From Candidatus Omnitrophota bacterium (GTDB lineage: Bacteria; Omnitrophota; Gorgyraeia; Aquiviventales; Aquiviventaceae), in the NCBI GenBank assembly GCA_016209275.1, contig JACQWM010000040.1, positions 1-44,947 on the forward strand: 44,947 nucleotides of DNA, read 5' to 3'. Of the stretch, positions 9,556-36,543 are shown one piece after another (the stretch's first letter is position 1; each line of letters opens with the position of its first letter). The notes below the pieces were generated by a model. That model was not told the DNA's origin. It did no database searches and saw only the letters and a program-made list of their open reading frames with translations. The translations under genes were made by a program, and so were the position numbers.

Positions 9556-11829
9556 TCAGAGCTTGATGTTGCGTAAGCGCAGGGCGTTGCTGATCACGGA
9601 CACGGAGCTGAACGTCATGGCTGCACCCGCCAGCATGGGGCTCAGGAGCACACCGCAGAATGGATAGAGCGCCCCAGCGGCCACCGGCACACCCAGGGCG
9701 TTATAGATGAAGGCGAAGAATAAATTCTGCCGGATGTTGCGCATGGTCGCCCGACTCAAGCGTCTCGCTCTGGCAAGGCCACGCAGATCGCCCTTCACCA
9801 GCGTGATGTCCGCGCTTTCCATCGCGACATCGGTGCCTGTGCCCATGGCGATACCGACGTTCGCCTGCGCGAGGGCCGGCGCGTCGTTGACCCCATCGCC
9901 GGCCATGGCGACGATGCGGCCCTCGGCTTGCAGTCGCTTGATCAACGCGCCTTTCTGCTCCGGGAGCATGTCCGCGTGCACGTGCTTCAGGCCCAGTTGC
10001 CGAGCAACCGCCTCCGCCGTGGTGCGACCGTCTCCGGTCACCATCACCACCTGCACGCCGGCTCGGCGGAGAATCTCCAAAGCTTCAGGGGTTGAGGATT
10101 TGATCCGATCGCCGATCCCCAAAAAACCCGCCAGTTTCCGATCCACGGCCACGAAGACCACCGTATGTCCCTCGTTGCGCACGGCCTCGGCACGATCCGC
10201 GAGCGCCTCGACGGCGATTCCACGGTCCTCCATGAGTTTCTGGCCGCCGACAACAATGGCACGTCCGTCGATGGTTCCGCTCACCCCTTTGCCTGTGAGC
10301 GATTGAAACGCTTGAGGCTGCGCCAACGTCAACTCCCGGGCCTTAGCACCCTCCACAATCGCCGCGGCCAGCGGATGCTCACTGCCACGCTCAAGGCCGG
10401 CCGCCGCTCGGAGGAGGTCTGATTCGCTCCAGCCGGGTGCCGGCACCACAGTGAGCACTCGCGGTTTGCCCTCGGTGAGCGTGCCGGTCTTATCGACGAT
10501 CACCGTATCCACACGTCCCATGACTTCCACGGCCTCCGCGTTCTTGATCAGGACTCCTACCTGCGCACCGCGACCCACCCCCACCATGATGGACATCGGC
10601 GTGGCCAGCCCCAACGCGCAAGGACAGGCAATGATCAGCACCGCGATGGCGCTGATCAACGCATGGGCGAGCCGCGGCTGCGGTCCCACCAGATTCCAGA
10701 CGAGAAAGGTGCTGAGGGCGATGACGACCACGGCGGGGACGAACCAGGCCGAAACCACATCAGCAATCCGCTGGATGGGCGCTCGGCTGCGCTGGGCTTC
10801 GCTGACGAGTCGCACGATTTGCCCCAACAAGGTTGCCTGGCCCACCCGTTTGGCTTCCATCACAACGCCGCCGGTGCCGTTGACGGTTCCTCCGGTCAGC
10901 CAGCCACCAAGACGTTTCTCGACGGGCATAGGTTCACCGGTGATCATCGACTCATCGACGGAGCTTGTGCCTTCGATGACCATCCCATCAGCGGGAACGT
11001 GCTCACCGGGCCGCACGCGGAGCCGATCTCCAACCTGAACCTGCGTTAGTGGCACATCCACTTCACGCCCGTCAGTCTCTAGGCGTCGAGCGGTCTTCGG
11101 CGCAAGATTCAGCAAGACCTTGATGGCCTCGCTGGTGCGGCTCCTGGCTCGAAGCTCCAACACCTGCCCTAAGAGTACGAGCGTGGTGATGACGGCGGCT
11201 GCCTCGAAGTAGACCGGCACGGTCCCGTGCGGTCCGACCACGGAGGCTGGAAACAGGCCCGGCGCGAAAACGGCCAACACGCTATAGCCGTAGGCGGTGC
11301 CCGTGCCAATCGCAATCAGCGCGAACATATTCAGGCGTCGTCGGACGATGGACTGCCAGCCTCGTTGAAAGAACGGCCCACCGCCCCACAGCACCACCGG
11401 CGTGCTGAGTAAGAGTTGCAGCCACAGGCTGAGGCGGACGGAGATCACGTGTCCCAGCGGATTGCCGGGGATCATCTCCGACATGGCCAGCGCCAAGACT
11501 GGAATGGCGAGGACGAGGCTCAGCCGAAATCGGCGAGTCATGTCACGCAGCTCAGGGTGTGTCGGCTCCTCGGCGATTGGCTCGAGCGGCTCCAGCGCCA
11601 TCCCACAGATCGGACATGCGCCGGGTCCGGGCTGACGAATCTCAGGATGCATCGGACACGTGTAGACGGCGTGGGCGGCTGGCTGAGCGGCAGCCGGCAT
11701 CTGTTGCCGTCGCTGCCGTCGCTCAAATTCGGCGGCGCAACGCTCGCTGCAAAACCATCGGCCATGACGCTCAATCGTGCCGGTCATCCCGCAGATGGGA
11801 TCTCGAATGGCAAGCGGGGGAACGGTCAT
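9556..11829 (-). CDS. copA: Copper-exporting P1B-type ATPase with N-terminal YHS and heavy-metal-binding domains
   Basis: Pumps Cu(I), or possibly Ag(I), out of the cytoplasm using ATP. The first part is a YHS/TRASH domain (Cys13 in PICGM, then Cys27 and Cys31 in FCSERC), followed by a Cys-type heavy-metal-binding domain (Cys58, Cys72, Cys75 in CPMHPEIRQ ... CPICGM). The usual HMA (GMxCxxC) domain is absent. The core has the transport motif [10 protein letters not shown], phosphorylation motif [11 protein letters not shown], the SEHPLA nucleotide motif and [15 protein letters not shown] with this topology indicates the monovalent-copper subgroup. With 757 residues it is full length. It begins two bases after the glgP stop, so it is in the same transcript. 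Confidence 0.95.
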
Positions 11830-11830
11830 C

Positions 11831-13513
11831 TTAGCGAGTGTACGCGTTCATCACATACTGCTGGAGCATCCGCTGCGTATTGAAGAATGCGCCATTGATG
11901 GCGATCGCATGGCGCATCACATCGATGAACCGGTCTCGGTTGCGATAGAACAAGGGCGCCACGGTCTGTTCCAGCGCGTCGTACAGAAAAGCGGCGTCCT
12001 GCGCAGCGTCTCGTGGCGTTCCCTCGTTACCGCCATCCTGGCCAATCGCCCAGCCTGTGATCCCTTCAATGTGACCCTCGAGCCACCAGCCATCGAGAAT
12101 GCTCAGACTCGGCACCCCGTTGAGCGCGGCCTTCATGCCGCTGGTCCCCGAGGCCTCGAGCGGTGGCTGAGGGGTGTTCAACCACACGTCCACCCCCGCC
12201 GTTATGAACTGGCCCAGCTCCATGTCGTAGTTCTCCAGGTAAGCCACTTTGAGGTAGGGTTGCAGCGCCTCCTTGGCCTTGATGATGCGCTGAATGAGCG
12301 CTTTCCCTTCCTGATCCTGTGGATGCGCCTTGCCCGCATAGATCACTTGGATCGGGCCGGTTTTCGCCACGATGCGCTTGAGCCGCTCCAGATCGTGGAA
12401 TAGCAAGTCGGTTCGCTTGTACGTCGCCGCCCGCCGCGCAAACCCAAGCGTGAAATGATCGATGTCCATCCCCAGATTCGTCTGGTCGTTTACGTACTCG
12501 AGGAGCCGCTTCTTGGCCTGCAGATGGGTCGCCCACAACTCTTGTCTTGAGATGTTCAGGGCATAGCGAAGGCTGAAGTTGTCCCCTCGCCAGCCGGAGA
12601 TGTAGCGATCGAATAACTGCTGAAAGGGTGGTGAGGTCCATGTCGCGGCGTGGACGCCATTGGTGATCGCATCGATCTTGTAGCGGGCGAACATGAGCTG
12701 GGAGACTTCTCCATGGCGCTTGGCGACCCCGTTGACGTAGTGGCTCAGGTTCAGTGCCAGATAGGTCATATTCAGCAGCCCTTCGCAGCAGAACACCTCG
12801 TGCATGTCATACACGTCGCGGCGCCCCAGCACCTGGATGACGAGGTCCATCGGAAACTTGTCATGCCCGGCCGGCACCGGGGTGTGGGTCGTGAATACGC
12901 ATTGCTTGCGGACGACGTCGACATCGTCATGCGTGATGGCTGTTCGTCCTGCCTGCGTGGCCGCCTCATCGAGCAATTCCAAGGTCAACAAACTTGCATG
13001 CCCTTCGTTCATGTGGAACCGCGTGATCTGGTCATGGCCCAACGCCCGGAGCATCCGCACCCCGCCGATCCCGAGGACAGTTTCCTGGCAGAGCCGATAG
13101 TGCTGGTCCCCGCCGTAGAGGTAGTGGGTCAGCGTCCGATCACCCTCGGCATTCTCCGGCAGGTCAGTGTCGAGAAGAAAGACCGGCACGGTAAATCCCT
13201 CGGCACCCTTGACGTCGTACTGCCAGGCACGGATGTGGACGGCGCGTCCCTCAATCATGACTGTGACGCGCTGGGACCGTTCGGTCAGGTAGTCCTCGAT
13301 CGCCCACGCCACCGGCTCTTCTCGCTGCCAGCCAGTGGCATCCAGCCGCTGGTAGAAATATCCTTTCCGATAGAGCAACGTGACCGCGACCAGGGGAATC
13401 TGAAGATCAGCCGCCGAGCGAATCGTATCGCCCGCCAGCACGCCCAACCCACCGCTATACGTGGGAATCCCGTGTTCCAAGCAGATCTCCATGGAGAAGT
13501 AGGCGATGCTCAT
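11831..13513 (-). CDS. Alpha-glucan (glycogen/maltodextrin) phosphorylase, short family
   Basis: Releases glucose-1-phosphate from alpha-1,4-glucans with phosphate and pyridoxal phosphate. It belongs to the TIGR02094 alpha-glucan family, but at 560 residues it is a short version that begins directly at [20 protein letters not shown], the conserved glycan/phosphate loop, with no N-terminal extension. Other landmarks are [40 protein letters not shown] and the PLP-lysine motif [19 protein letters not shown]. The start overlaps the kinase-YHS stop (ATGA), so the enzymes are made together. Its presence inside a copper operon is unusual; a link of glycogen breakdown to metal stress is inferred only from position. 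Confidence 0.88.
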
Positions 13514-14631
13514 GCCGTAACGTTCCTGACGAATCGTTGGGGAGCTGCCTCAAATTGTTGCTGGCACTTGAGGGAACAGAACTGATAGACCGTCCCTCGA
13601 TCGGTCGCTGAAAAACCAGAGAGCGCGGGGTCCACGTCCATGCCGCAGACGACATCTCGCACGCTCGTCGTCTCTGCTAGCACCTGGGACGATGCGGCAG
13701 TTTTCAGCGGCGTGATCGTGATCTGATCCACCAGTCGCTCCACATCTTCTCTGCGGCAAAGCTGGGTGCCCTCGTGCATGACCGCGGCTGTGCCGGCGGC
13801 GGTGCCCAGCCTCACGGCCGATTCCAGTGATTGCCCGTGCGAGAGCGCGAGCACAACGCCCGCGAGGAAGGAGTCGCCAGCCCCGACCTTGCTGCGGACT
13901 TCCACATCAGGGCTCGCGACGTGAAGAGCCTTTCCTTGGCTGACGATCAACGCACCCTTGCGCCCTAACGTGATGGCCACGACCTGAACCCCGCCGGCGA
14001 TGACTTCTTGAGCGGCGTCGATCAAGGACTGTTCCGTGGGCAGCGGACGGCCGATCAGACGGGCAAACTCATGTTCGTTTGGTTTGATCAGGTATGGGTT
14101 GGCTTGCAAGCCGAGTTTCAGGGCTTCGTCATCGGCATCCAGCAGACATTTCGCGCCGCGCTGCTGGAGGCTGCTGATCACTCTGGCATAGAAGTCGTCC
14201 GGAACGCCCGGCGGCAGGCTGCCGCCGAGGACCCACCACGCCGGAAATGGTTCACAGCTCACGATCTTGGCGGTGAACTGCTCAAGCTCTGCCAGCGTGA
14301 TCCGAGGACCTGGCGCGCTGATGCGGGTTTGCGTCCAGTCGGACCGGTCGGTGAGGATCACGTTGATGCGGGTCTCCTCCGGGACCTCGATGGCCTCACA
14401 TGGAATGCTATGCTCGGCCATGAGGTTCTTCAGCATGTACCCGGCGCAGCCGCCGGACACCCCGAAGGCCACCGTCTCGCCACCAAGCTCTTTCACAACC
14501 CGCGAGACGTTGATCCCCTTCCCGCCTGGGTCTCGGCGAATCTCGCGCGCCCGGATGGCGTCATCCTTCGTCAGCCTGTCGATGAGAATGTGCTGATCGA
14601 TGGATGGGTTGATGGTAACCGTGCCGATCAT
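13510..14631 (-). CDS. PfkB-family phosphofructokinase-like kinase with C-terminal YHS domain
   Basis: Residues 1-310 are a ribokinase-fold sugar-phosphate kinase of the PfkB/1-phosphofructokinase/tagatose-6-phosphate kinase group: [13 protein letters not shown], the [17 protein letters not shown] substrate motif and the catalytic [14 protein letters not shown] with its Asp base. Residues about 323-370 form a YHS/TRASH metal-binding domain: [14 protein letters not shown] (Cys329) and [19 protein letters not shown] (Cys352, Cys356). Such a fusion is very uncommon to my knowledge. With the phosphorylase next door it could feed glycogen-derived hexose phosphate into glycolysis, with the YHS part sensing or localising by copper; that is inference. 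There is no frameshift between the two parts: the reading frame is continuous. Confidence 0.85.
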
Positions 14632-14954: not shown

Positions 14955-16415
14955 CTACTTGACGCCCAGCCAGCGGCTCAGTGTTGGTCGCTTCCGCGGT
15001 TCCTCATCCGATTCGATCGGTCCCACCAAGGTTGAAGCCGCCTCGCGCAACGCCTCCTCTCCGACGATCCCCTGCGTGACCAGCGACTTGATGCTGCTTT
15101 CCAGCGCGTGCATCCCTTCATGGACTCCGAGCTCGATGTAGCCGCGCAGCTCATGCAGCGCGTTGCGGCGGATGACGTTGCGCACCGCCAAGGTGGCCAG
15201 GAGCACCTCGGTCGCCGCGACCATCCCGGAGCCATCCCGTCGTTTCAGGAGGCGTTGCGCCACAATGGCCTGCAGCGACTGCGTCAGTTGAATGCGGATT
15301 TGTCCCTGGAGCTCGGCCTCGAACACGTCCAGGATCCGCGTGACTGCCTGAATCGTCGTCCCACTGTGGAGCGTGCCCAGCACCAGGTGGCCGGTCTCCG
15401 CCGCCCGGACGGCCAGCGCGATACTCTCCCGGTCCCGCAGCTCCCCGACCATGATGATGTCCGGGTGTTCGCGCAGGGCGCTGCGCAACCCATCGGCGAA
15501 GGACCTGGTATGCGCGTCCAACTCCCGCTGGTGAATCAAGGAGCGCTTGTTGGGAAACACATACTCAATAGGATCCTCAATCGTAATGATGTGCCGCTCA
15601 TCCTGCTGGTTGATGGCATCAATGAGAGCCGCCAGCGTCGTGGACTTGCCGCTTCCCGCAGGACCGGTTACCAGGATGAGGCCCCGCGAGCAGCGGCTGA
15701 GACTCTCGAAGATTGGCGGCAGTCCCAACTCCGCCAAGGTTGGAATCCGATGGGGCAGGGGACGAAACGCGATGGCCTGCCCGTCTTGTTCCCGGAAAAC
15801 GTTTACCCGGAAGCGTGAGAGGCCCTCGATCCCGATCCCCACATCCACCTCACGGCCTTCGAGGAATTGCGCTCGCTTAGCCTCCGGCAACAACGCCTCG
15901 ATGATTTGGGACATACGGTCTGTGGTCAGCGGAGGTTCATTGAGCGGCTTAAATGAGCCATACACCTTGAGCGTGGGCCGATCGGCGACAGCCAGGAAGA
16001 GGTCGGATGCATGCTGCCGAACCGCCTGTTCCAACCATGGCAGCAGTCCGCAGTGAGTCAGGCGTTCGATGAGGTTGTCCGGCTGCTGGGCACTTTGAAC
16101 AAGAGATGGTACGGGGCGTTCGCCAGATTGACTCAGAAACACTGAGGCACAGGTCGGACAGCAGAACTGGTACGTTGATCCCCGAATTGTGAGCGGGGAA
16201 ACCGTTTCACCCACGTGAATCGTCTTGCGGCACAGCTCACAATGTCCTGTGGGCGCTTGCGGCTGCTGAGCGAGAAAGCGCTCCGGCTTCATGAGGAAGA
16301 CACGTCGGCAGGCCTCAGCACAGAAGACATACCGTGTGCCGGCGTGGTCCTCAGAGAACTGCGCTTGCTCGCCCTGTTCGACCACCACCTCCATCCCACA
16401 TACGGGATCACGCAT
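14955..16415 (-). CDS. PilT-type ATPase with N-terminal YHS domain and second Cys cluster
   Basis: A fusion of 486 residues. Residues 1-48 are a YHS/TRASH metal-binding domain (RDPVCGM with Cys6; FCAEACRRVF with Cys32 and Cys36). Residues 57-95 are a second treble-clef-like cluster (Cys59, Cys62, then CCPTC at 85-89). From about residue 115 it is a GspE/PilT-family secretion ATPase: Walker A GPAGSGKS (251-258), the Asp-box IITIEDPIEYVF, Walker B PDIIMVGELRD and the His-box AAETGHLVLGTLHSGTT. PilT hexamers normally retract type IV pili, but no pilus gene is visible here. I chose the ATG at 16415, preceded by AAGGAGG. A copper-responsive mechanical or remodelling ATPase is inference. Confidence 0.88.
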   Translation of the reverse strand: MRDPVCGMEVVVEQGEQAQFSEDHAGTRYVFCAEACRRVFLMKPERFLAQQPQAPTGHCELCRKTIHVGETVSPLTIRGSTYQFCCPTCASVFLSQSGERPVPSLVQSAQQPDNLIERLTHCGLLPWLEQAVRQHASDLFLAVADRPTLKVYGSFKPLNEPPLTTDRMSQIIEALLPEAKRAQFLEGREVDVGIGIEGLSRFRVNVFREQDGQAIAFRPLPHRIPTLAELGLPPIFESLSRCSRGLILVTGPAGSGKSTTLAALIDAINQQDERHIITIEDPIEYVFPNKRSLIHQRELDAHTRSFADGLRSALREHPDIIMVGELRDRESIALAVRAAETGHLVLGTLHSGTTIQAVTRILDVFEAELQGQIRIQLTQSLQAIVAQRLLKRRDGSGMVAATEVLLATLAVRNVIRRNALHELRGYIELGVHEGMHALESSIKSLVTQGIVGEEALREAASTLVGPIESDEEPRKRPTLSRWLGVK

Positions 16416-16426
16416 TGGGACCTCCT

Positions 16427-17065
16427 TCACTCACGCAGGGCTTTAAGGAGCGCCTCGAGCCCCTGATCGTCGTACAAACGCTGTAGTCGCTTTCGCTCCG
16501 TCCGAAGCGCGGCATCAGCTTCAGGGGTCTGAATCTCCTGCATCGCCGGAAGCCAGATGGTCCCATCTTGGAAGCGCACCATTTTCACCATCAGGAGGGC
16601 TTTCACCACCTCATCAGCCTTGGATATTTGCTGTTCCCACCGGCGATCATGTGTTTCCCCGGGGGCAAGCTCTTCGCTGTCCGTCACCTCGACAACCCAC
16701 TGGGGCTGATCGAACGCGTCGAGCAACTTCCACTGAAACCGGACGGCACTGACGCTCCGTTTACTGCGGTTGCGATACTGAAGCCGACCCTCCCAGTGGG
16801 TGAACTGCGCACTCTCGATGTTCACCGACTTCGTCTGCGTGTGCCGCGAGACACCGACCCGCGAAGGGACCGCTTGATACTCCAGGAGCTGCCCTGTGGT
16901 ATCGAGCACGTCGATCGGTGCATCAGGCACCTTCGCCACCCCAACCGGAACCTCCTGATCAGCAAGCGCACGCCCCAATATTGAGCCATACAACATGGTG
17001 GCCACAACCAGCCATCTGAGTAACCGGCGCACGGCGTGTTTTGGGGATTGCCTCTCGCTTCGCAT
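16427..17065 (-). CDS. Secreted protein of unknown function
   Basis: I do not recognise this 212-residue protein. It has a basic N-terminus (KHAVRRLLRW), a hydrophobic stretch and a signal-peptidase-type site near ALADQEV, so it is probably periplasmic. The middle looks beta-rich (FTHWEGRLQYRNRSKRSVSAVRFQWKLLDAF), like an immunoglobulin-type or DUF-type accessory domain, and the end is helical and charged (RTERKRLQRLYDDQGLEALLKALRE). A GTG three bases upstream could also start it. It lies 11 bases before the PilT-YHS gene, so it is in the operon, but nothing in it shows metal binding: there is no Cys and there are few His. Confidence 0.7.
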   Translation of the reverse strand: MRSERQSPKHAVRRLLRWLVVATMLYGSILGRALADQEVPVGVAKVPDAPIDVLDTTGQLLEYQAVPSRVGVSRHTQTKSVNIESAQFTHWEGRLQYRNRSKRSVSAVRFQWKLLDAFDQPQWVVEVTDSEELAPGETHDRRWEQQISKADEVVKALLMVKMVRFQDGTIWLPAMQEIQTPEADAALRTERKRLQRLYDDQGLEALLKALRE

Positions 17066-17074
17066 CACACCCTA

Positions 17075-17470
17075 TCACCAACCCTTCAGCAACTCCTGGA
17101 GCCCTTCCAATCCTTCCGCGTGTCCTTCGTGCTCTTCGGCCAGCGCCTCAGCAGCCTCGGCCGCCTCGAGGTACTTCTTGCTCAAATACTCGCAGTGCGC
17201 TAGCCACTCGTCCCGCTCCCGCGGCCCGCTCCACGACGGGTTGGCGCGGACCTTCTCCGCCATCGCCGTGTGGTAGGCCGCCCGTTTGCGAAGCGTCGCC
17301 GCTTCTTTGTGATAGGCGGACGCCAACCGCTGATGGGTCTTTGGATTCAGGGAGTGCGCGGCCGTCTTCTCATACCACGAGAGCGGCAGTCCGCTGGTCG
17401 CACAGCCTTGGAGGGTGAACGCGAGGAGCCCCATGATCACCGTCAGGAATACACGTACACGCTGACCCAT
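17075..17470 (-). CDS. Small helical lipoprotein
   Basis: A 131-residue predicted lipoprotein: signal peptide ending in the lipobox LQGCATSG, then a long alpha-helical region rich in Ala, Glu and Lys (KTHQRLASAYHKEAATLRKR ... AEAAEALAEEHEGHAEGLEGL). The helical part looks like a coiled coil facing the periplasm. I place the start at the ATG at 17470 because AGGGGG precedes it; a TTG four codons upstream is less likely. The function is unknown. Similar small helical lipoproteins occur beside metal-efflux systems, but I do not know a named family for this one. Confidence 0.7.
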   Translation of the reverse strand: MGQRVRVFLTVIMGLLAFTLQGCATSGLPLSWYEKTAAHSLNPKTHQRLASAYHKEAATLRKRAAYHTAMAEKVRANPSWSGPRERDEWLAHCEYLSKKYLEAAEAAEALAEEHEGHAEGLEGLQELLKGW

Positions 17471-17493
17471 CGTCCCCCTCAACGCAGATTGAT

Positions 17494-17682
17494 TCAGTTC
17501 CGCACGCCAGATTGAGCTCTCACCAACCGCTCAGCTTCCAGCCAGTGCTCCAAATCCCGACCTTCCACGCGGCCGCTCTGCTCGTACAGCTCATACGCCT
17601 TCTTCGCGACCAGTTGTTGCAGGTCTTGATTTGTCCCTACCTGCTGAGTCGCGAACCTTGCGTCTTTCCGAGATTGCGCCAT
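17494..17682 (-). CDS. DUF2934-family small protein
   Basis: A 62-residue cytoplasmic protein. The segment VAKKAYELYEQSGRVEGRDLEHWLEAERLV fits the DUF2934 signature (AYELYE, GR, DLEDWLxAE), a domain of unknown function that is common in soil and aquatic bacteria. I chose the ATG at 17682 (MAQSRKD) because GGGGAGG lies upstream with good spacing; a frame extended 13 codons further upstream has no ribosome site. It sits between a lipoprotein gene and a small membrane-protein gene in the operon. No metal ligand is obvious. Confidence 0.72.
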   Translation of the reverse strand: MAQSRKDARFATQQVGTNQDLQQLVAKKAYELYEQSGRVEGRDLEHWLEAERLVRAQSGVRN

Positions 17683-17698
17683 TCTAATCTGCCTCCCC

Positions 17699-17947
17699 TC
17701 AGCGTGTTGGTTGCTGCGCAATGTGCCCCATCGGACACCACCCGATCCGGTGGTGGAGCGCAGGGCAAGCGAGAAACGTCCACACCAGCATGACCCCGGT
17801 AGCCGCCACCAGCGTCCACATCAACAACCGGCGGTACCGCCCTCGCACGCCCGCCACGACTCCGCGAAAGAACGACTGCTCAGCCAAGCGCAGCTCAAGA
17901 TTGGCTTGTTCCACGTCTATCCCTGTATGCCCCTCTCGCGTATCCAT
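17699..17947 (-). CDS. Small single-span membrane protein
   Basis: An 82-residue protein with a charged N-terminal half (LELRLAEQSFFRGVVAGVRGRYRR), one transmembrane helix (LLMWTLVAATGVMLVWTFLAC) and a short tail with Cys, His and Met (CPALHHRIGWCPMGH). The CPMGH ending resembles the metal-binding CPMH loops found elsewhere in this island, so the tail may hold a metal at the membrane surface (inference). The start is supported by GGAGG upstream with seven-base spacing. It is not a family I recognise. Confidence 0.6.
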   Translation of the reverse strand: MDTREGHTGIDVEQANLELRLAEQSFFRGVVAGVRGRYRRLLMWTLVAATGVMLVWTFLACPALHHRIGWCPMGHIAQQPTR

Positions 17948-18962: not shown

Positions 18963-21900
18963 TTATGACACCGCCGCCTGCCGAGCCACCCAGTCAGCCT
19001 TGCCCTCTTTCATCTCAAACTTCCATTTCCAAATCGCGTAGACGGACGGGTAGACCAACAGCTCCATGATGAATGACGTGAAGAGGCCGCCAACCATGGG
19101 TGCTGCGACGCGCTTCATCATGTCCGCTCCGCTTCCGATCGACCACATGATGGGCAGCAACCCCATGAAGGCCGCCATCACGGTCATCATTTTCGGCCGG
19201 ACCCGTTTCACCGCGCCATGGATGATCGCTTCTTCCAGATCGTGCTCGTTGCGCATCTTTCCCTTCTGAATCGCCTCATGATACGACAGGTCCAAAAACA
19301 GCAGCATGAACACGCCGGTTTCCGCATCCAGCCCCATCAACGCAATCATACCCACCCAGACCGCGATGGAGATGTTGTAGCCGAGAAACCAGAGCAGCCA
19401 CACCGCGCCGATCAGGGAAAACGGCACCGCCAGCATGACGATCGCCGTCTTCACCATGGACTTCGTGTTCATGTAGAGCAGCAGACAGATGATGAAGATG
19501 GTCAGCGGCAGCACGACCTTCATCCGCTCTTTGACCCGGATCATATTCTCGTACTGGCCGCTCCACGTCAGAGCGTAGCCAGCGGGAAGCGCGAGCTCCT
19601 TCGCCACGATCTTCTTCGCCTCGGTCACATAGCTGCCGATGTCTCGTCCGGCCATGTCGACGTAGACGTACCCCGCCAACAATCCATTTTCATTTCGAAT
19701 CATGGCGGGGCCGGAGACCGGCCGGATATCGGCCAACTGCACCAAGGGGATGTGCTGACCCGCCGGGGTGGGTACGAGGACGCGCTTCAATTTCTCGATG
19801 TCATCCCGAAACTCCCGGGAGTAGCGGACATTGACCGGATACCGCTCGCGACCCTCAATGGTCGTCGTGATGTTCTCCCCGCCAATCGCGGACATGATGA
19901 CCATCTGGACCTCACCGACGGAGAGGCCATACCGGGCCAGCTCGTCGCGCTTGAGATCAACATCCACGAAGTAGCCGCCCGCCACACGTTCGGCGTAGAT
20001 GCTGCGCGTGCCGGGCACGTCCTTGAGGACCATCTCCAAGTGCGTGCCAAGCTCCTCGATCTTCTTCAGATCCGCGCCGAAAATCTTGATGCCGATCGGC
20101 GTGCGCACTCCGGTCGTGAGCATGTCAATACGATTCTTGATCGGCATCGTCCAGGCGTTCGTGACGCCGACGATCTTGAGTGAACGGTCCATCTCATCGA
20201 TGAGCTGTTCATACGAGATATGGCAGGGCCAAAACGGCCGAAAGGGTGCCTCCATCCAGTCCGGCAGCCACGAGTACCACCGCGTAACCTTGCGCCATTC
20301 CCGCTCCGGTTTCAGCAGGACGACCGTCTCCATCATCGAGAAGGGTGCGGGATCGGTCGAACTCTCCATACGGCCCGATTTACCGAACACCCGCTCGACT
20401 TCAGGAAAAGTCTTGAGCACCTGGTCCTGCTTTTCCAGAAGCGCTTGGGCTTCAGTGACCGAAATCCCCGGGAGGGTGGTGGGCATGTACAGGAGGCTGC
20501 CTTCCCGAAGCGGCGGCATGAACTCTGAACCCAGCCGCAAGTAGATAGGAATCGTGGTCAGAACCAACCCGAGGGCCGTCAAGATAGTCGCCTTGCGGTG
20601 CTTGAGGACGAACCGGCAGGCCGGCTCATAGATGCGGAAGAGCACTTTACTGACTGGATGCTTTTCCTCTGGATAGTAGGTGCCGACGGCAATCGTCGTG
20701 GCGATTTTAGACGCCATCCCCCGGATGCGCTGCGGGATCCAGCGGGTTTTCAGCGTGATCGGCTCCATGCGGGTGAACAGCATCCGCATGGCGGGATCAA
20801 GCGTCACGGCCAGAATCGCCGCGATCGCCATCGCCAGGTTTTTTGCCCAAGCGAGCGGCTTGAACAGACGCCCCTCTTGATCGACCAGCGTGAAGATCGG
20901 CATGAACGCGACGGCGATCACGAGCAGCGAAAAGAAGACCGAGGGGCCCACTTCCTTGAGCGCCTTAAGCCGGATGGCATGATAGTCGCCCTTGCGGCCG
21001 CCTTCAATCCACTGCTCCAAACGTTTATAGGCGTTCTCCACCTCGACGATCGCCCCATCGACGAGTACGCCGATGGAGATGGCAATCCCCGATAAGGACA
21101 TGATGTTGGAGGTCAGCCCCATCCCGAAGAGGGGGATGAAAGAGAGAATGACGGAGACCGGGATCGTCACAATCGGAATGACCGCAGAAGGAAAATGCCA
21201 GAGGAAGATGAGGATGACGATGCTGACGATGATCATCTCTTCCACAAGCTTTTCCTTCAGATTCTTGATGGAATGCAGGATCAGCTCGGAACGATCATAC
21301 GTCACCTCGACCTTAACCCCGGCCGGCAGCGAGGGCTCGATCTCGTTCAGCTTGGCTTTGACTCGGTTGATGACATTGAGGGCGTTTTCGCCGAAGCGCA
21401 TGATGACGGTGCCACCTACGACGTCGCCACGGCCGTCGAAGTCCGCCAAGCCGCGCCTGATCTCAGGACCCAGCACCACGGTCCCGATATGTTTCACAAG
21501 GATCGGGGTGCCCTTTTGATCCGTCCCGACGACGATTTTCTCAATGTCCTCGACGGACTTCAGATACCCGCGGCCTCGAACCATGTATTCCGCCCCGGAG
21601 AACTCCAAGAGTCGGCCGCCGACCTCCTGGTTTCCCATTCGGATCGCGTCGACCACCTTTGTCAGCGGGATGTTGTAGGCGAGTAACCGGTTGGGATCGA
21701 TCGTGACTTGATACTGTTTGACGAATCCGCCGATTGAGGCGACTTCCGCGACACCCGGAACGCTCTGGAGGTAGTACCGCAGATACCAATCTTGGAAGCT
21801 CCGAAGTTCTTGCAGGTTATGCTGGCCGGACTCATCGACGAGGGCGTACTGGAACACCCAGCCAACCCCTGTCGCGTCCGGTCCCATCTCCGTTTTGACA

Positions 21901-22319
21901 CCTTCGGGAAGCCTCGGGATGATCTTGCTGAGATATTCCAGAGTGCGGCTGCGCGCCCAGTAGATGTCGGTGCCGTCCTTGAAGATCACATAGACGTAGG
22001 AGAAGCCAAAGTCGGAGAACCCGCGGATCGCCTTGACCCGTGGAGCCCCCAGCATCGCGGTGACGATGGGATAGGTCACCTGGTCTTCGATGATGTCCGG
22101 GCTGCGATCCCACCGGGAGTAGATGATGACCTGCGTGTCGGAGAGATCTGGAATGGCATCAAGGGGAATGTTGCGCATCGCCCAGATCGAGGCAACCAGG
22201 GCGAAGGCTACGAAGATCAGGACGAGGAATTTATTGTGTGCCGAGAATTCGATGATTTTCTCGATGAATCCCCCCTGGCGCAGGGATGGAGACTGGCCGG
22301 CTTCGGTTTCACTGGCCAT
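18963..22319 (-). CDS. cusA: Copper/silver RND efflux pump, inner-membrane subunit
   Basis: Proton-driven heavy-metal RND transporter that moves Cu(I)/Ag(I) to the outer membrane channel. Twelve transmembrane helices are arranged as 1+6+5 with two large periplasmic loops. Family landmarks are the opening IPLDAIPDLSDTQVIIYSRW, helix 4 VDGAIVEVENAYKRLE, and the Met-containing stretches DPAPFSMMETVVLLKP and NRIDMLTTGVRTPIGIKI, which place it in the monovalent-metal (CusA/SilA) group rather than CzcA. It has 1118 residues. I use the ATG at 22319: the upstream in-frame GTG at 22334 contains the ribosome site GGAGG itself. The start overlaps cusB by 11 bases. Confidence 0.96.
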   Translation of the reverse strand: MASETEAGQSPSLRQGGFIEKIIEFSAHNKFLVLIFVAFALVASIWAMRNIPLDAIPDLSDTQVIIYSRWDRSPDIIEDQVTYPIVTAMLGAPRVKAIRGFSDFGFSYVYVIFKDGTDIYWARSRTLEYLSKIIPRLPEGVKTEMGPDATGVGWVFQYALVDESGQHNLQELRSFQDWYLRYYLQSVPGVAEVASIGGFVKQYQVTIDPNRLLAYNIPLTKVVDAIRMGNQEVGGRLLEFSGAEYMVRGRGYLKSVEDIEKIVVGTDQKGTPILVKHIGTVVLGPEIRRGLADFDGRGDVVGGTVIMRFGENALNVINRVKAKLNEIEPSLPAGVKVEVTYDRSELILHSIKNLKEKLVEEMIIVSIVILIFLWHFPSAVIPIVTIPVSVILSFIPLFGMGLTSNIMSLSGIAISIGVLVDGAIVEVENAYKRLEQWIEGGRKGDYHAIRLKALKEVGPSVFFSLLVIAVAFMPIFTLVDQEGRLFKPLAWAKNLAMAIAAILAVTLDPAMRMLFTRMEPITLKTRWIPQRIRGMASKIATTIAVGTYYPEEKHPVSKVLFRIYEPACRFVLKHRKATILTALGLVLTTIPIYLRLGSEFMPPLREGSLLYMPTTLPGISVTEAQALLEKQDQVLKTFPEVERVFGKSGRMESSTDPAPFSMMETVVLLKPEREWRKVTRWYSWLPDWMEAPFRPFWPCHISYEQLIDEMDRSLKIVGVTNAWTMPIKNRIDMLTTGVRTPIGIKIFGADLKKIEELGTHLEMVLKDVPGTRSIYAERVAGGYFVDVDLKRDELARYGLSVGEVQMVIMSAIGGENITTTIEGRERYPVNVRYSREFRDDIEKLKRVLVPTPAGQHIPLVQLADIRPVSGPAMIRNENGLLAGYVYVDMAGRDIGSYVTEAKKIVAKELALPAGYALTWSGQYENMIRVKERMKVVLPLTIFIICLLLYMNTKSMVKTAIVMLAVPFSLIGAVWLLWFLGYNISIAVWVGMIALMGLDAETGVFMLLFLDLSYHEAIQKGKMRNEHDLEEAIIHGAVKRVRPKMMTVMAAFMGLLPIMWSIGSGADMMKRVAAPMVGGLFTSFIMELLVYPSVYAIWKWKFEMKEGKADWVARQAAVS

Positions 22320-23727
22320 GTTGGTGCCCTCCACTTCCGCTCATCCCTTCCAAGGCGGCTTTGAGGCGGCTCTCCGAGTCGATCAGGAAATTGCCGCTGG
22401 TGACCACGAGTTCCCCTTCGGCGACACCACTCTTAATCTCGTAGGAACCCTCTGCCTTGATTCCGACCGTCACATCACGCGGCTCAAAGAGCCCCTCGCC
22501 TTTGTCGACGAAGACGACCCGCTTCGTTCCCGTATCAAACACCGCCTCTTCGGGAATCGCAAGCACCTCGCCTGCAGCGATCTGAATTGAGGCGTTTACG
22601 AACATCTCTGGCTTGAGCGCACCTTCAGAGTCGGTGAGGATCGCGCGGACCCTGGCTGAGCGTGAGGCCGGATCCAACACCGGGTCGATGGAACGGATGA
22701 TCCCCTCCCAGGTCTTGCCTGGCACCGACGCTGATTCGGCGACAATGGTTTGTCCGATCTGGACGAATGGCAACTCGAACTCATAGATGGGGGCGTAGAG
22801 CCATACCTGCCCGCTGGGATCGGCCAGGAGCAGACGCTGGTCAGGCCCGGTCCAGCTCGCCATCTCATCGATCAGCTCATGGCTCAGACCCAATCGACGC
22901 AGCCGCAGGCGGCTGGAGTCGACGAGCCGCTGCGCTCGCTCAGTCACCTCTGGCATGGTGCCGGTCTTGGCTTGTCCCAAGGCTTTCAGCGCCTGAAGGT
23001 ATTCCTGCTGCGCTTGGTAGAGTTCCGGGTCGTTGGCGATCTGGCCCACGGTTCGGATGATTTTGTTGATCGTCCGCCGCTGTACGGGTGCTGTGGTCAC
23101 ACCGATGAACTGCCGTTTCTGCGGCGCGACCAGGATCGGCGCATAACCCTCAGGAGCCGCGGCGGTCGCAGCACCCGGAGCGCCGTTTTCCTCGTAGACT
23201 GGAATCAAATCCATCCCCATGGGCGATTTGCCGGGCTTGTCCGATTTGTAGCCTGGCAGCATCGGATCAGTCCAGTAAAGAGTTTTCTTCTCCCCCATGG
23301 CCGGTGTGACGGACGGACCGGTCGCTGCCTCGGCCACATGGGTTCCACAGATGGGGCAGACGACTTTCTCGCCCGCCTTGGCCACGACGAGCATCGGGCA
23401 TTGTTGGCCCGGCTTCATCATGGGGCAGTTGTGCATGTAGCAAATGTCTTTGGCAGCTCTGGGCTCTGGGCTCTGGGCTCTGGGCAGGCTCGGTTGGCCC
23501 TGCGCCCCCAACCCCGAACCCTGAGCTTCTCTTTTCACCAGCGTCATATTGCAGATCGGGCAGCTCCCTGGACGGTTCGAGGTGTACGTCGGATGCATGG
23601 GGCAGTAGTAGACCACAGCCTGATGCGCGCCATGGCGCCTGCCGCTCCTGGCGACTACGGCACCGACCCCGATGAGCAGCGCGGCGGCAAGGCCGATGAT
23701 GAGCACTTGTTTTCGACTGGGCGTCAT
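22309..23727 (-). CDS. cusB: Cus-type membrane-fusion protein with three metal-binding modules
   Basis: Periplasmic adaptor linking CusA to the outer-membrane channel. After an N-terminal membrane anchor (VLIIGLAAALLIGVGAVVA) come a heavy-metal-binding loop (YYCPMHPTYTSNRPGSCPIC), a second Cys/Met cluster (CYMHNCPMMKPGQQCPML ... CPICGTHV) and the standard CusB module (YWTDPMLPGYKSDKPGKSP). The helical hairpin, lipoyl-like (VVAPQKR ... SGQVWLYAPIYE) and beta-barrel domains follow, ending His-rich. Between the first two modules is a low-complexity insertion from tandem GGGCTCT DNA (about 23456-23490). AGGAGG precedes the ATG, which overlaps the cusC stop (ATGA). Confidence 0.94.
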   Translation of the reverse strand: MTPSRKQVLIIGLAAALLIGVGAVVARSGRRHGAHQAVVYYCPMHPTYTSNRPGSCPICNMTLVKREAQGSGLGAQGQPSLPRAQSPEPRAAKDICYMHNCPMMKPGQQCPMLVVAKAGEKVVCPICGTHVAEAATGPSVTPAMGEKKTLYWTDPMLPGYKSDKPGKSPMGMDLIPVYEENGAPGAATAAAPEGYAPILVAPQKRQFIGVTTAPVQRRTINKIIRTVGQIANDPELYQAQQEYLQALKALGQAKTGTMPEVTERAQRLVDSSRLRLRRLGLSHELIDEMASWTGPDQRLLLADPSGQVWLYAPIYEFELPFVQIGQTIVAESASVPGKTWEGIIRSIDPVLDPASRSARVRAILTDSEGALKPEMFVNASIQIAAGEVLAIPEEAVFDTGTKRVVFVDKGEGLFEPRDVTVGIKAEGSYEIKSGVAEGELVVTSGNFLIDSESRLKAALEGMSGSGGHQHGQ

Positions 23728-25013
23728 GGTCGTCCTCCTTGAGATGTCAGATCCGTTCCAATGGCCCGCTCGAGGGCTGCGAAACTTTTCATCGCCTCGG
23801 CCAGCGCTTGGTAGTACGCGACTTGGGCGTTGAGATAGACACGTTCGCTGTCAATAAGATTCAGCACATCGACACGGCCGGCCTCATATCCGGCTTGATC
23901 AGATTGGAAGGCGACCTGCGCTTCTGGGATCAGGGCGTTTTGATAGACTTCCACCACTTGCTTGGCCGCCGTGAAGCGGTAGTAGGCATCCTTGACGTCG
24001 TACTCGGTGAGGTTCTCGGCCTGTGCGAGTCTGGCCTGGCTGGCCCTGAGGTTGCGCTTGGCTTCGAGCACACTGGGAATCAGGCGGTTTTGCCACAGCG
24101 GCACGTTGATCTTCAGCGGCACCATCCAGGCATCGCGTCCGTCATTGGGCTCGGTCGTCATGCCGGCGCCAATTGTGGTGTATTGGAATCCCACGGTCAG
24201 ATCCGGCACATACTCCAACTTCGCCAACATATTCGCATGCTTCTCCCGCTTGACCATTGCCGACGCCTCTCCTAATTCAGGGCGGGATTTCTGCGCCATG
24301 GCCAAGAGCTCCTCAAGTGTTGAAGACAGCGTCGGCAGCTCGGGTTTCTCAGCGTGTCCTACCGGCGTATGAGGATCGCGGTCGAGCAGCGCGTTGAGCA
24401 GCGCCGCAACGGTCTGGCGTTGCTGACGCAGCATTAACAACCGCTGAAGCACATCGGAGACTTCCGTCTGCGCCTTGGCCACATCACGCTGCGATCCGCC
24501 TTGAGCCGCGTAGCGCGCCTGCGCGATCCCCTCGAATTTCTTCAACGCCTCGTCGATTTCTTCGACCGCACCAGTCACAGCATCGACGGCGTAGAGGTCG
24601 TAGTACACGTCGGAAACCTTGAGGATCACGTCGCGCTCCGTCATCCGCAACTTGGCTTGTGAGGCTCGGGCTTCCGCACCGGCGATCCAATGCTTTTCCC
24701 AGAGTTTGCCGGGAAACGGAATCATCTGCTCCGCTTCATAGACGTTCATTTGGGGCCCGACCCTGGTTTCCAGGTCTGGTCCCATGATGGCGTAGCCCAC
24801 GGTTGGGTCGGGGAGCGCTGAGGCCTGCGGGATGCGCAATTTCGCGGCGTGCCACTCTTCCTTCGCCGCCTTCAGTCCAGGATTTCTCTGGAGCGCCTCA
24901 GCAATGATATCCTGCAGGCCAAGCTCCTTCGACGGCTGGTCATTCGCCGCAGCATCAGGCAACCGCACCGCCTGCAGGACGAGCATTAGGACCCACAGAA
25001 GAACTCCCCGCAT
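23724..25013 (-). CDS. cusC: Outer-membrane efflux channel of the Cus system (TolC family)
   Basis: Trimeric outer-membrane channel partner of CusBA. Two TolC/OEP repeats are visible: the first begins LGLQDIIAEALQRNPGLKAAKEE and the second ALLDRDP ... LEELLAMAQKSRPELGEAS, each with long helical stretches. A Sec signal peptide (GVLLWVLMLVLQAVRLPDAAA) precedes the mature protein; no lipobox Cys is present, unlike E. coli CusC. I start at the ATG at 25013 (MRGVLLW), with AAGGAGG six bases upstream, giving 429 residues. The 100 bases between this start and the small secreted gene above hold no further feature I can identify. Confidence 0.92.
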   Translation of the reverse strand: MRGVLLWVLMLVLQAVRLPDAAANDQPSKELGLQDIIAEALQRNPGLKAAKEEWHAAKLRIPQASALPDPTVGYAIMGPDLETRVGPQMNVYEAEQMIPFPGKLWEKHWIAGAEARASQAKLRMTERDVILKVSDVYYDLYAVDAVTGAVEEIDEALKKFEGIAQARYAAQGGSQRDVAKAQTEVSDVLQRLLMLRQQRQTVAALLNALLDRDPHTPVGHAEKPELPTLSSTLEELLAMAQKSRPELGEASAMVKREKHANMLAKLEYVPDLTVGFQYTTIGAGMTTEPNDGRDAWMVPLKINVPLWQNRLIPSVLEAKRNLRASQARLAQAENLTEYDVKDAYYRFTAAKQVVEVYQNALIPEAQVAFQSDQAGYEAGRVDVLNLIDSERVYLNAQVAYYQALAEAMKSFAALERAIGTDLTSQGGRP

Positions 25014-25112
25014 CCGCAACCTCCTTCTCAAACGTCCCCCATTCATGTGGTGAACCAGCGCCTAGACACATCTTCTCAAGAAATCGTGCGCAGCACAACC
25101 TCTTCGGGAGGA

Positions 25113-27397: not shown

Positions 27398-28891
27398 CTA
27401 GTGATGATGCATTCCTTCATGATGCTCCTGTGATCCCATTGGCTCTCTTGATTCAGACTGGCGATTGCCATCTCCTTCTTCCGCTGGCTCTGCCTTCTGG
27501 GGTTTGAGGGTCATGCCGCACTTCGGACAGGAGCCGGGCTCTGACTGTCGGACTTCGGGGTGCATCGGACAGACGTATGCGCCGATCTTCTGCTTGCCGA
27601 AGTCGGGATTGATCGACTCGGCCACCGTGCCCGGTGGGTTGTCGTACCAGCCTCCATCATCCGGCAATTGGATCTGTTTGGTGTAGTCGTCCGCAGTCGC
27701 AAACCGCGGCGCATTCTCGTGGACTTTGAGCACCGTAAACATCCCGCCCATGCCGATCGGTCCGAACGGCCCCTGGCCGCCCATCATCGGCAGCGTATTC
27801 GGTGGGCCGGCCATGTGCTTGGCATGCTCCGCGTGCTCATGCATTCCGGTCTCGCCCATCGCCATGTAGCCGGGCACGAGCGCTTGGATTTTCTCTTCCA
27901 CGCCAGCTTGATTGACCCCGAGGACATTCGGGATGTCATGGCCCATCGCATTCATCGGATGATGCCGCAGATGACAATGTAGCGCCCAGTCGCCGGGAAT
28001 GGCGATGAACTCGTAGTCCCGCGTTTGTCCCGGGCCGATGGCGACGGTGGTTTCCATCCACTGAGCGGTCTCAGGAATATCGCCGCCGTCGGTCGCCACG
28101 ATCGTGAAGGAGTGCCCGTGCATGTGAATAGCATGAAAGTCCTGTCCGACATGGCCCAGCCGGACGCGGACGCGCTCCCCGGGTCTGGCCAAGAGCGGCG
28201 CTGTACCGGGAAAGGCCCGGCTGTTGAAGGTGAAGATATTGAAGTCGGTCATGACATTGGGATCAGGCCTCGCCGTGCCCGGCTGGACGAACCATTCGTT
28301 GAGAAAGATCGCATAGTCACGATCGATCTTATGCGTCGGTCGCTTCGGGTGGATGATAAAAAATCCCATCGCGCCCAGACCGATCTGCACCATCTCATCG
28401 CCGTGCGAGTGATACATCTGCGTGCCATGCTGCTTCAGCGTGAACTCGTACTTGAAGGTGTCCCCTGGCGGGATGGGCCACTGGGTGAGTCCGGCAACAC
28501 CATCCATTCCACTCGGTAAAATCACTCCATGCCAGTGGACCGCCGTCGGCTCGGGCAGCTTGTTTTCTACCAGAATTCGCACGCGATCGCCCTCGACGGC
28601 TTCAATCGTCGGGCCTGGTGTTTGGCCGTTGTAACCCCACGCCTTAACGACCATCCCCGGCGCCATTTCCCAGGTGATCTCTTCCACCGTCAGATGGAAC
28701 TCCTTTGTCCCGTCGACCATCTTCCATGGCAGTGTAGAGCCGTTGAGCGTCACGACCGGGGTGTAGGGCAGGTCCTTGACCGTCTCGGAGGTCAACGATG
28801 TTTGCCCACTGACGACCCGCTGAGCAAGCACCGTCGCCATACTGAGGACGACAACGACCGCTCCAAACAGAATGAGTCGCTTTATGCTCAT
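27398..28891 (-). CDS. Two-domain multicopper oxidase with C-terminal heavy-metal-binding module
   Basis: Periplasmic copper enzyme that would oxidise Cu(I) or organic substrates with oxygen. All four copper motifs are visible: HWHG (119-122), HSH (161-163), HAIHMHGHS (253-261) and HCHLRHHPMNAM (305-316; type 1 ligands Cys306, His311, Met316). The first and last are only about 190 residues apart, so the core is a two-domain type with the type 1 copper only in domain 2, as in trimeric two-domain laccases. After a Met/His linker come a metal-binding loop (YVCPMHPEVR ... CPKCGMTL) and a His tail. The start overlaps the TolC stop (ATGA). It has a Sec-type signal sequence. Confidence 0.9.
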   Translation of the reverse strand: MSIKRLILFGAVVVVLSMATVLAQRVVSGQTSLTSETVKDLPYTPVVTLNGSTLPWKMVDGTKEFHLTVEEITWEMAPGMVVKAWGYNGQTPGPTIEAVEGDRVRILVENKLPEPTAVHWHGVILPSGMDGVAGLTQWPIPPGDTFKYEFTLKQHGTQMYHSHGDEMVQIGLGAMGFFIIHPKRPTHKIDRDYAIFLNEWFVQPGTARPDPNVMTDFNIFTFNSRAFPGTAPLLARPGERVRVRLGHVGQDFHAIHMHGHSFTIVATDGGDIPETAQWMETTVAIGPGQTRDYEFIAIPGDWALHCHLRHHPMNAMGHDIPNVLGVNQAGVEEKIQALVPGYMAMGETGMHEHAEHAKHMAGPPNTLPMMGGQGPFGPIGMGGMFTVLKVHENAPRFATADDYTKQIQLPDDGGWYDNPPGTVAESINPDFGKQKIGAYVCPMHPEVRQSEPGSCPKCGMTLKPQKAEPAEEGDGNRQSESREPMGSQEHHEGMHHH

Positions 28892-31539: not shown

Positions 31540-32076
31540 TTACCAGAGCTTGGCTGCGTCATCCTCAAGCTCGTCATACAGTTCTTGGTATCGCTCAGGA
31601 TATTTCTGCTTGAATTCTTCCAAGAGCTGTTTGCGAAGGGCCTCGAACGCTTCTCGCCGGTCAAGCTTGCGCACCTGCGAGTCGTAGCTAAGGAACTCCC
31701 AGATCTGCCTGGCCTCCACCCCGTTGATTCCTGTCCCGGGCTTGTGCCACATCCGCTTGACGTACTGTTCCCAGAACGGGGGACTCGCCCACTGGGAATT
31801 GATGGGCCGGGCCAAGGTATGACACCTGGAGCACTTCTGGGCGAACAGCCCGTAGGACTGCTGCATCTGGCGTGGATAGGCCGACACGTCGATCTGGTCC
31901 GGCCCAAGGTCGTTGGCGTACGGCCGCTTCGCCGCTTCTTTGACGTCTTCCTCCACCAGTTGCCGTTCCATGAGTCGATCTGGCTCAGCCTCCGGCGGCG
32001 CGGCCGAGACCGAGGTGATCGCAACGCACAGGGTTGCCAGCGTCACAGCCTGCAGACGCTGATGAGCGGCCCTCAT
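31540..32076 (-). CDS. Monoheme c-type cytochrome, paralogue of the one at 37975
   Basis: A 178-residue exported cytochrome. A signal peptide (LQAVTLATLCVAITSVSAA) is followed by a segment with one heme motif CSRCH. Around it the pattern IDVSAYPRQMQQSYGLFAQKC and RPINSQW recurs almost unchanged in the cytochrome at 37975, so the two are duplicates. The Met axial ligand is probably in YVKRMWHK. It lies 13 bases after the NrfD gene; by analogy with the monoheme subunits of alternative complex III it may take electrons from the complex. The C-terminus is a charged helix. Confidence 0.85.
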   Translation of the reverse strand: MRAAHQRLQAVTLATLCVAITSVSAAPPEAEPDRLMERQLVEEDVKEAAKRPYANDLGPDQIDVSAYPRQMQQSYGLFAQKCSRCHTLARPINSQWASPPFWEQYVKRMWHKPGTGINGVEARQIWEFLSYDSQVRKLDRREAFEALRKQLLEEFKQKYPERYQELYDELEDDAAKLW

Positions 32077-32089
32077 CTCGCCTCGCGTG

Positions 32090-33457
32090 TCATCGCCATA
32101 CGCCCCATCGTTCCGTCGCTGGCTGCGCTGCGCCAGCCGGTCCTTCTGTTGGGAGATAGGTCTTCAGCCGCTCCACCGTCTCTGGAATGCCGCGCTCCTG
32201 TCCCTCTCGAATTTCCCAGATCGCAATGACCGGGAAGAGCTTCGCAAAAATGCAATAGAACAAGAGGAACATCGCAAACGCACCCGCTGTGATGGCGCCC
32301 TCGACCCACGTCGGATGGTAGATTCCACCGCGATACGGGAGTCGCGGATTGATCAGCGAGGGCACCACGATCAGAAACCTCTCAAGCCACATGCCGATCA
32401 AGACCAGCACTGAGGCGATGACGGTGCCAGGGATCGACCGTCCTTTCCGCAAGGCCAGGATCGGCACCGGAACCACAAAGCAACACGCCACCATCGTCCA
32501 AAAATAGGGGGCGTACGGTCCGGTGATCTTCGACCAGAAGACCTGCATCTCGTCCGGCTCGTTGCCGTAGAACGTCGTCAGATACTCCGCAAACGTAAAA
32601 TAAAACCAGCAGCAGGCCATGACCAGCAACAACACAGCTAGGTTGTTGAAGTGGATCGGCTTCAGATACGCCTCCAAGCGATAGGCCTTGCGGATCACCG
32701 CCATCGCGATGATGAGGGCGGCGATCCCGGAGAAGATCGCGCCGACGACGAAGTAGGGGCCGAAGATGGTGCTATGCCACATCGGCTGCACCGTCATGGC
32801 GAAGACCCACGAGACCACGGTGTGGACGGTGATCGCGATGGGGATCACGAGCACCGCCATGATCGAGATGGCGACTTCGAGCCAGTGCTGCTGTCGTGGC
32901 GTCCCGGTCCAGCCCAAGGCCAGCAGTCGATAGAACCACCGGCGCTTCGGGACGCGGTCCCTGAGCAGCGCGAGGTCCGGGATGAGGGGCAGATACAGGT
33001 ACAAGGTGCTCGCGGTCAAGTACGTTGTGATGCTCGTCACGTCCCAGAGTAGCGGCGAGCGGAAGTTCGGGTGGAGGAGGACGTTCAGCGCCCGGTCCGG
33101 CCGGCCTAGATCCATAAGGATGTTGCCAGCGCCGATGAACAGCACCAGCACGGTGATCGCCTCCGCCATTCTGGTGATTGGTCGTCGCCATTCCGCCCGG
33201 CACAGCCGGAGGATGGCCGAGATCAGCGTTCCGGCGTGGCTGATCCCGATGAAGAAGACGAAATTGGTGATGTAGATGCCCCAGAATACCGGGCGGTTGA
33301 GACCGGTCATCCCTAAGCCGAACACCAACTGGTGGAGCCAGGCATAGGCTGCCACCGCGATCACCACCAGGAGACAGCCGATCACTGCGAAGAACCCGGG
33401 CGAGAACCGGGTGATGGGGGTGATCAGATCCGACTCCAGGCGGGAGGGTTGGCTCAT
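32090..33457 (-). CDS. NrfD/ActC-like quinone-interacting membrane subunit
   Basis: An integral membrane protein of 455 residues with about ten transmembrane helices. The stretch LGMTGLNRPVFWGIYITNF ... GISHAGTLISAILRL, followed by FRSPLLWDVTSITTYL and WLEVAISIMAVLVIP, is characteristic of the ActC subunit of alternative complex III and of QrcD, PsrC and DmsC relatives, which bind quinol in the membrane. No heme is bound by this family. It follows the Fe-S subunit by two bases, as in complex operons. The direction of electron flow (quinol oxidation or quinone reduction) cannot be read from sequence. Confidence 0.92.
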   Translation of the reverse strand: MSQPSRLESDLITPITRFSPGFFAVIGCLLVVIAVAAYAWLHQLVFGLGMTGLNRPVFWGIYITNFVFFIGISHAGTLISAILRLCRAEWRRPITRMAEAITVLVLFIGAGNILMDLGRPDRALNVLLHPNFRSPLLWDVTSITTYLTASTLYLYLPLIPDLALLRDRVPKRRWFYRLLALGWTGTPRQQHWLEVAISIMAVLVIPIAITVHTVVSWVFAMTVQPMWHSTIFGPYFVVGAIFSGIAALIIAMAVIRKAYRLEAYLKPIHFNNLAVLLLVMACCWFYFTFAEYLTTFYGNEPDEMQVFWSKITGPYAPYFWTMVACCFVVPVPILALRKGRSIPGTVIASVLVLIGMWLERFLIVVPSLINPRLPYRGGIYHPTWVEGAITAGAFAMFLLFYCIFAKLFPVIAIWEIREGQERGIPETVERLKTYLPTEGPAGAAQPATERWGVWR

Positions 33458-33459
33458 CG

Positions 33460-36536: not shown

Positions 36537-36543
36537 CCCATCG

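Follow-up and report, generated by a model that had tools for sequence, protein, structure and literature searches.

A PilT/PilU-family ATPase with fused YHS and TRASH-like domains in Omnitrophota, a candidate metal-responsive accessory pilus motor

Does a pilus retraction ATPase of the Omnitrophota carry its own metal-binding domains, and if so, what might such a protein do beside copper genes? The question is raised by a frame of 486 aa in a 44,947-nucleotide stretch of a Candidatus Omnitrophota genome (contig JACQWM010000040.1, positions 1 to 44,947; hereafter the window). The initial annotation described it as a YHS domain (Cys6, Cys32, and Cys36), a second Cys cluster (59, 62, 85/86, and 89), and a complete PilT-type core within a copper operon. 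The minus strand is translated from an ATG at 16415 to a stop at 14955 with no interruption, and the ORF list contains a GTG at 16430 as an alternative start that would add 5 aa. The Cys residues of the protein (6, 32, 36, 59, 62, 85, 86, and 89) are at the annotated positions, and Pfam agrees with both assignments. The YHS domain, with its Asp and three Cys, scored 44.1 bits against a cut-off of 30.3, and residues 59–94 matched TRASH_HVO_1752_C with 33.4 bits against a cut-off of 27. The ATPase part matched NCBIfam TIGR01420 (pilT_fam) with 415 bits against a curated cut-off of 319, Pfam T2SSE with 164 bits, and solved PilT structures with E-values down to 6e-87. Its catalytic boxes are all present and intact: Walker A (GPAGSGKST), Asp box (IEDPIEYV), Walker B (DIIMVGELRD), and His box (TGHLVLGTLHS).

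Table 1 Coordinates of the fusion gene, its domains, neighbouring genes, and the orthologous locus.
Feature	Position	Strand	Evidence
YHS-TRASH-PilT fusion gene, 486 aa	14955..16415	(-)	single open frame; orthologue in G330
YHS domain, residues 2-50; putative ligands D3, C6, C32, C36	16266..16412	(-)	Pfam PF04945
TRASH-like Cys4 domain, residues 59-94; C59, C62, C85/C86, C89	16134..16241	(-)	Pfam PF24273
PilT/PilU-family ATPase, residues 126-460	15036..16040	(-)	TIGR01420, PilT structures, motifs
213 aa gene, signal-peptide-like N-terminus, weak DUF5780	16427..17068	(-)	ORF list, Pfam
Lipoprotein-like 135 aa gene, same tight run, no Pfam family	17075..17482	(-)	ORF list, Pfam
DUF2934 protein	17494..17721	(-)	Pfam
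YHS-domain protein, N-terminal signal-like segment	18511..18948	(-)	Pfam
Cus-like efflux set: RND pump, CusB-like protein with HMBD, outer-membrane OEP	18963..25046	(-)	Pfam
Multicopper oxidase with HMBD	27398..28891	(-)	Pfam
PfkB-type sugar kinase, C-terminal YHS-like domain	13510..14631	(-)	YHS 27.5 bits, cut-off 30.3
CopA-like P-type ATPase, HMBD and N-terminal treble-clef-like Cys motif	9556..11829	(-)	Pfam
Aspartyl-tRNA synthetase, 464 aa	1196-2590	(-)	
Respiratory-type cluster	31540-37068	(-)	
Orthologous YHS-TRASH-PilT gene, 473 aa	G330:C153:5692-7113(-) = L051:6004-7422(+)		
103 aa protein, no Pfam family, directly upstream of the G330 fusion gene	L049 7162-7473	(-)	

When the N-terminal 122 aa were used as the sole query, a second Omnitrophota genome (G330), which belongs to another family (f41) of the same class, was found with an E-value of 2e-26. 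Its orthologue has the same three-part layout in a different neighbourhood. The two proteins share 56% identity over the full length, with 41–46% in the metal domains and 62% in the ATPase, and D3, C6, C32, C36, C59, C62, C85, C86, and C89 are all kept in the G330 protein. The G330 copy gave no TRASH match at 1e-5, although its Cys residues are kept. Because the N-terminus alone finds the same layout in an independent genome, the fusion is real, neither a product of chance nor of misassembly, and the assembly join that the initial annotation had considered is ruled out.

The architecture was found in 2 of about 470 Omnitrophota genomes (overlapping draws were searched) and was not found in the other genomes of the same family that were searched. 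A first scan of the genome contigs with P0001 gave no match, and scans of viral sequences found no fusion. A pattern scan of 84,980 species, by exact match to RDPVCG[MA]E and a second peptide, returned only the known G330 fusion among the best 80 matches, in which the remaining readable frames were mostly copper P-type ATPases. Matches on Pseudomonas and Pseudarthrobacter plasmids that seemed to reach query residues 43–51 were rejected as fusions because the PilT genes, as annotated, begin further downstream, and the additional residues fall in the preceding gene or in the gap ahead of PilT. Contamination of the bin was also rejected. On the same contig, an aspartyl-tRNA synthetase reaches 79% identity with its counterparts in same-family genomes, and the orthologue lies in a genome of the same class; therefore, the window belongs to the Omnitrophota. 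This synthetase is itself short, and its match in many other Omnitrophota families is split at residues 293/296 within frames of ca. 590–600 aa, indicating that the enzyme of the host lineage has no internal insert domain.

The annotated copper operon was borne out by Pfam, which identified an RND pump, CusB-like protein, OEP, multicopper oxidase, and P-type ATPase, with HMBDs in the CusB-like protein, the oxidase, and the P-type ATPase (Table 1). A DUF2231 protein and glycogen phosphorylase are further neighbours. The 213 aa gene ends 11 bases before the ATG of the fusion gene, and the lipoprotein-like gene is 6 bases from the 213 aa gene. Such short gaps make co-transcription of the three genes probable; a search of this stretch gave no sigma-70-like promoter. 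Two other features of the window were recorded. The PfkB-type (1-phosphofructokinase-like) kinase with a YHS-like end adjoins the glycogen phosphorylase and is a second enzyme-YHS fusion of the cluster. The respiratory-type cluster encodes a molybdopterin oxidoreductase, an Fe-S protein, NrfD, and two small cytochrome-like proteins with CxxCH motifs.

A class-wide profile search yielded four closer relatives that have no metal domains, each from a different Omnitrophota genome (G372, G157, G292, and G472; loci L133, L134, L135/L138, and L136/L139). In a 64-sequence tree, these and the two fusion proteins formed one clade (support 100/100, stem 0.82) separate from canonical PilT and PilU; it lay closer to one group of PilTs (91/98), yet apart from them. 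The architecture proposed in the initial annotation stands, whereas a plain PilT that gained a metal tag does not, since the ATPase belongs to a distinct orphan clade in which metal domains occur in only 2 of the 6 members. All six have intact catalytic boxes, single letters aside. No member was found in two sets of 198 genomes each, one from the phylum of a Nitrospirae bin (G484) and the other from that of a 'Deltaproteobacteria' bin (G480), or in 44 diverse genomes. The highest scores outside the Omnitrophota (up to 420 bits) are consistent with ordinary PilT, and the sequences tested from among them grouped with PilT in the tree. So far, the clade is known only from Omnitrophota.

All six members lie outside pilus clusters, as far as the contigs extend. 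The G330 fusion gene has YegS, PAP2, GtrA, and DUF5329 neighbours and no copper operon. The orphan PilT genes are accompanied by YegS, DUF502, and glyoxalase genes in G372, FMN reductase and MarR in G157, trehalose, DUF2934-like, MdoG-, and MdoH-like genes in G292, and DJ-1/PfpI in G472. The weak DUF2934-like gene of G292 is directly upstream of the orphan PilT gene, and a DUF2934 gene is also present in the window cluster. Since the G330 fusion gene adjoins YegS, PAP2, and GtrA genes, the copper link comes from one locus. We read the common theme of the clade loci as stress, envelope, and detoxification rather than only copper, an interpretation drawn from a few loci and not from statistics.

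The initial annotation had noted that no pilus gene is near. This holds within the window, where a scan found no other pilus gene, but not genome-wide: contig C56 of the host genome carries a canonical PilT beside PilB-like ATPases and PilC, and PilM homologues are also present. All six carrier genomes likewise hold a canonical, higher-scoring PilT and have PilM matches, which are above the cut-off in four.

The fusion protein shares the whole ATPase core and catalytic boxes with PilT, the type IVa retraction ATPase, and is 44% identical to the canonical PilT of the same genome. An AIRNLIRE-like pattern is kept throughout the clade, although its letters vary between members; in the fusion protein it reads AVRNVIRR (5 of 8 letters identical). 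In contrast, the fusion protein differs from PilT by its N-terminal YHS-TRASH part, its separate long-stem clade, its location away from pilus genes, and three positions. Position 140 is F in the orphan clade and H in 35 of 36 sampled PilTs, position 150 is K instead of the R found in all sampled PilTs, and position 366 is D or E instead of the P found in all 50 sampled PilTs and PilUs. PilU forms a separate homohexamer and works in a PilT-dependent way (PMC6821130), and AIRNLIRE is absent from PilU (PMC6762196). As an extra paralogue alongside canonical PilT, the fusion protein may have a PilU-like role; however, it is not in the PilU clade, does not adjoin pilT, and retains the AIRNLIRE-like motif.

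A fused YHS domain with Asp and three Cys in the adenylyl cyclase of Mycobacterium phlei is thought to sense copper; the cyclase is activated by 1–10 µM Cu2+ with Mg2+ and not by Zn, Fe, Cr, Co, or Ni (PMC4626032, Linder 2015). D3-C6-C32-C36 of the fusion protein is the same Asp+Cys3 set, and both proteins are enzymes with a fused YHS domain. However, the cyclase is a different enzyme, its YHS domain is C-terminal, and it has no second TRASH domain. The best non-PilT matches of the fusion N-terminus were YHS/HMBD copper P-type ATPases (about 30–50% identity), which have a similar N-terminal YHS domain, often in tandem, but are transporters. Structure prediction of residues 1–106 reached a mean pLDDT of 78.2 from two sequences in only one of five models. 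This model was nearest to archaeal ribosomal L24e and an MYM-type TRASH finger (2das), with high Foldseek probabilities and E-values of only 0.04–0.08, and the MYM TRASH finger was also listed, weakly, by sequence search. The full-length AlphaFold model was poor (pLDDT 51.8, three sequences) and was taken as context only.

We tentatively favour, at somewhat below an even chance, the reading that the fusion protein is an accessory PilT/PilU-family retraction ATPase that acts in trans with canonical PilT and has YHS-TRASH as an N-terminal metal-sensing input. In this model, the gene would be expressed together with the copper-efflux cluster, and the ATPase would form a second, PilU-like hexamer that serves the type IV pilus platform alongside canonical PilT. 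The sets D3/C6/C32/C36 and C59/C62/C85-86/C89 would bind copper (or zinc), and the bound metal would shift the N-terminal domain and thereby change the ATPase rate. Pilus retraction would thus be coupled to metal stress in adhesion, detachment, or the withdrawal of metal-exposed filaments. This model is the simplest that uses all the facts. It is supported by the domains, motifs, and ligands kept in a second family, by the YHS Cu2+-switch and PilU precedents together with the copper cluster, by the separate clade that keeps an AIRNLIRE-like motif, by the fold resemblance of residues 1–106 to L24e and the MYM TRASH domain, and by the canonical PilT and PilM matches in every carrier genome. On the other hand, the occurrence of only two fusions, one of them away from a copper operon, the four of six clade members without a metal domain, the changed residues at positions 140, 150, and 366, and the possibility of a structural zinc site in the TRASH part count against this model. 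The architecture, the ligand assignment, and the 'metal-controlled motor' of the initial annotation agree with the evidence and with the YHS precedent (PMC4626032); metal binding and gating, the identity of the metal, the direction of its effect, and the action on pili are inferred. The more specific claim, that a type IV pilus retraction motor is gated directly by copper via the fused YHS-TRASH sensor, is possible but on the whole doubtful.

YHS-TRASH might instead be a structural or redox-sensitive zinc module serving assembly, localisation, or protein contact, the orphan pilus motor being regulated by expression alone. The Cys4 set of the TRASH part may well have a structural role in zinc binding, given its resemblance to structural zinc fingers (L24e and MYM), and both the G330 copy outside a copper operon and the four relatives without YHS-TRASH fit this explanation. 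However, the Asp+Cys3 set of the YHS part is linked to Cu2+ switching, and several window neighbours also carry YHS or HMBD metal domains; we regard a zinc module as rather unlikely. The changes from H140 to F, R150 to K, and P366 to D/E leave room for an output other than pilus retraction, and the orphan clade might drive another membrane or envelope process independent of pili, such as secretion or stress-response envelope remodelling. The clade loci, outside pilus clusters and beside trehalose, MdoG/MdoH-like, YegS/PAP2, DUF502, glyoxalase, DJ-1/PfpI, or copper genes, and the altered positions that are invariant in sampled PilT and PilU, such as P366, are in its favour. Conversely, the pilT_fam score is well above the cut-off, the AIRNLIRE-like motif is kept, and neither a gene for another platform (PilC/GspF-like) nor a pilin gene adjoins; we consider a function apart from pili less likely still, and the new type of secretion ATPase raised by the initial annotation is not favoured. 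Both of these explanations keep some probability because the signature positions differ and four of the six relatives have no metal tag. The rarity of the architecture would fit a lineage-specific fusion that is inert or decaying, or else a wrongly joined contig. This is very improbable: the second genome, which has an identical layout and every ligand kept at 56% identity, already largely refutes it, and the intact frame and catalytic motifs and the near-even G+C of the single contig also speak against it.

The control of pilus retraction ATPases is usually ascribed to partner proteins, second messengers, or expression. The literature searched on PilT and type IV pili in Omnitrophota did not describe a fusion protein of this kind, and the one paper in it naming both 'YHS domain' and 'PilT' appears to be an unrelated genome description. 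In the sources searched, the single parts are known, whereas the combination of these parts and the orphan clade seem to be undescribed. If the accessory-motor model with a metal input is true, the fused sensor would be a direct link from metal stress to pilus dynamics within a single protein. An orphan clade that is kept in addition to canonical PilT and located in stress islands points to pilus motors for specific conditions in Omnitrophota. Type IVa pili are common in this phylum and predation is suspected (PMC10066038); a copper-gated motor, if true, would make pilus dynamics depend on metal stress in bacteria for which predation and surface attachment are suspected.
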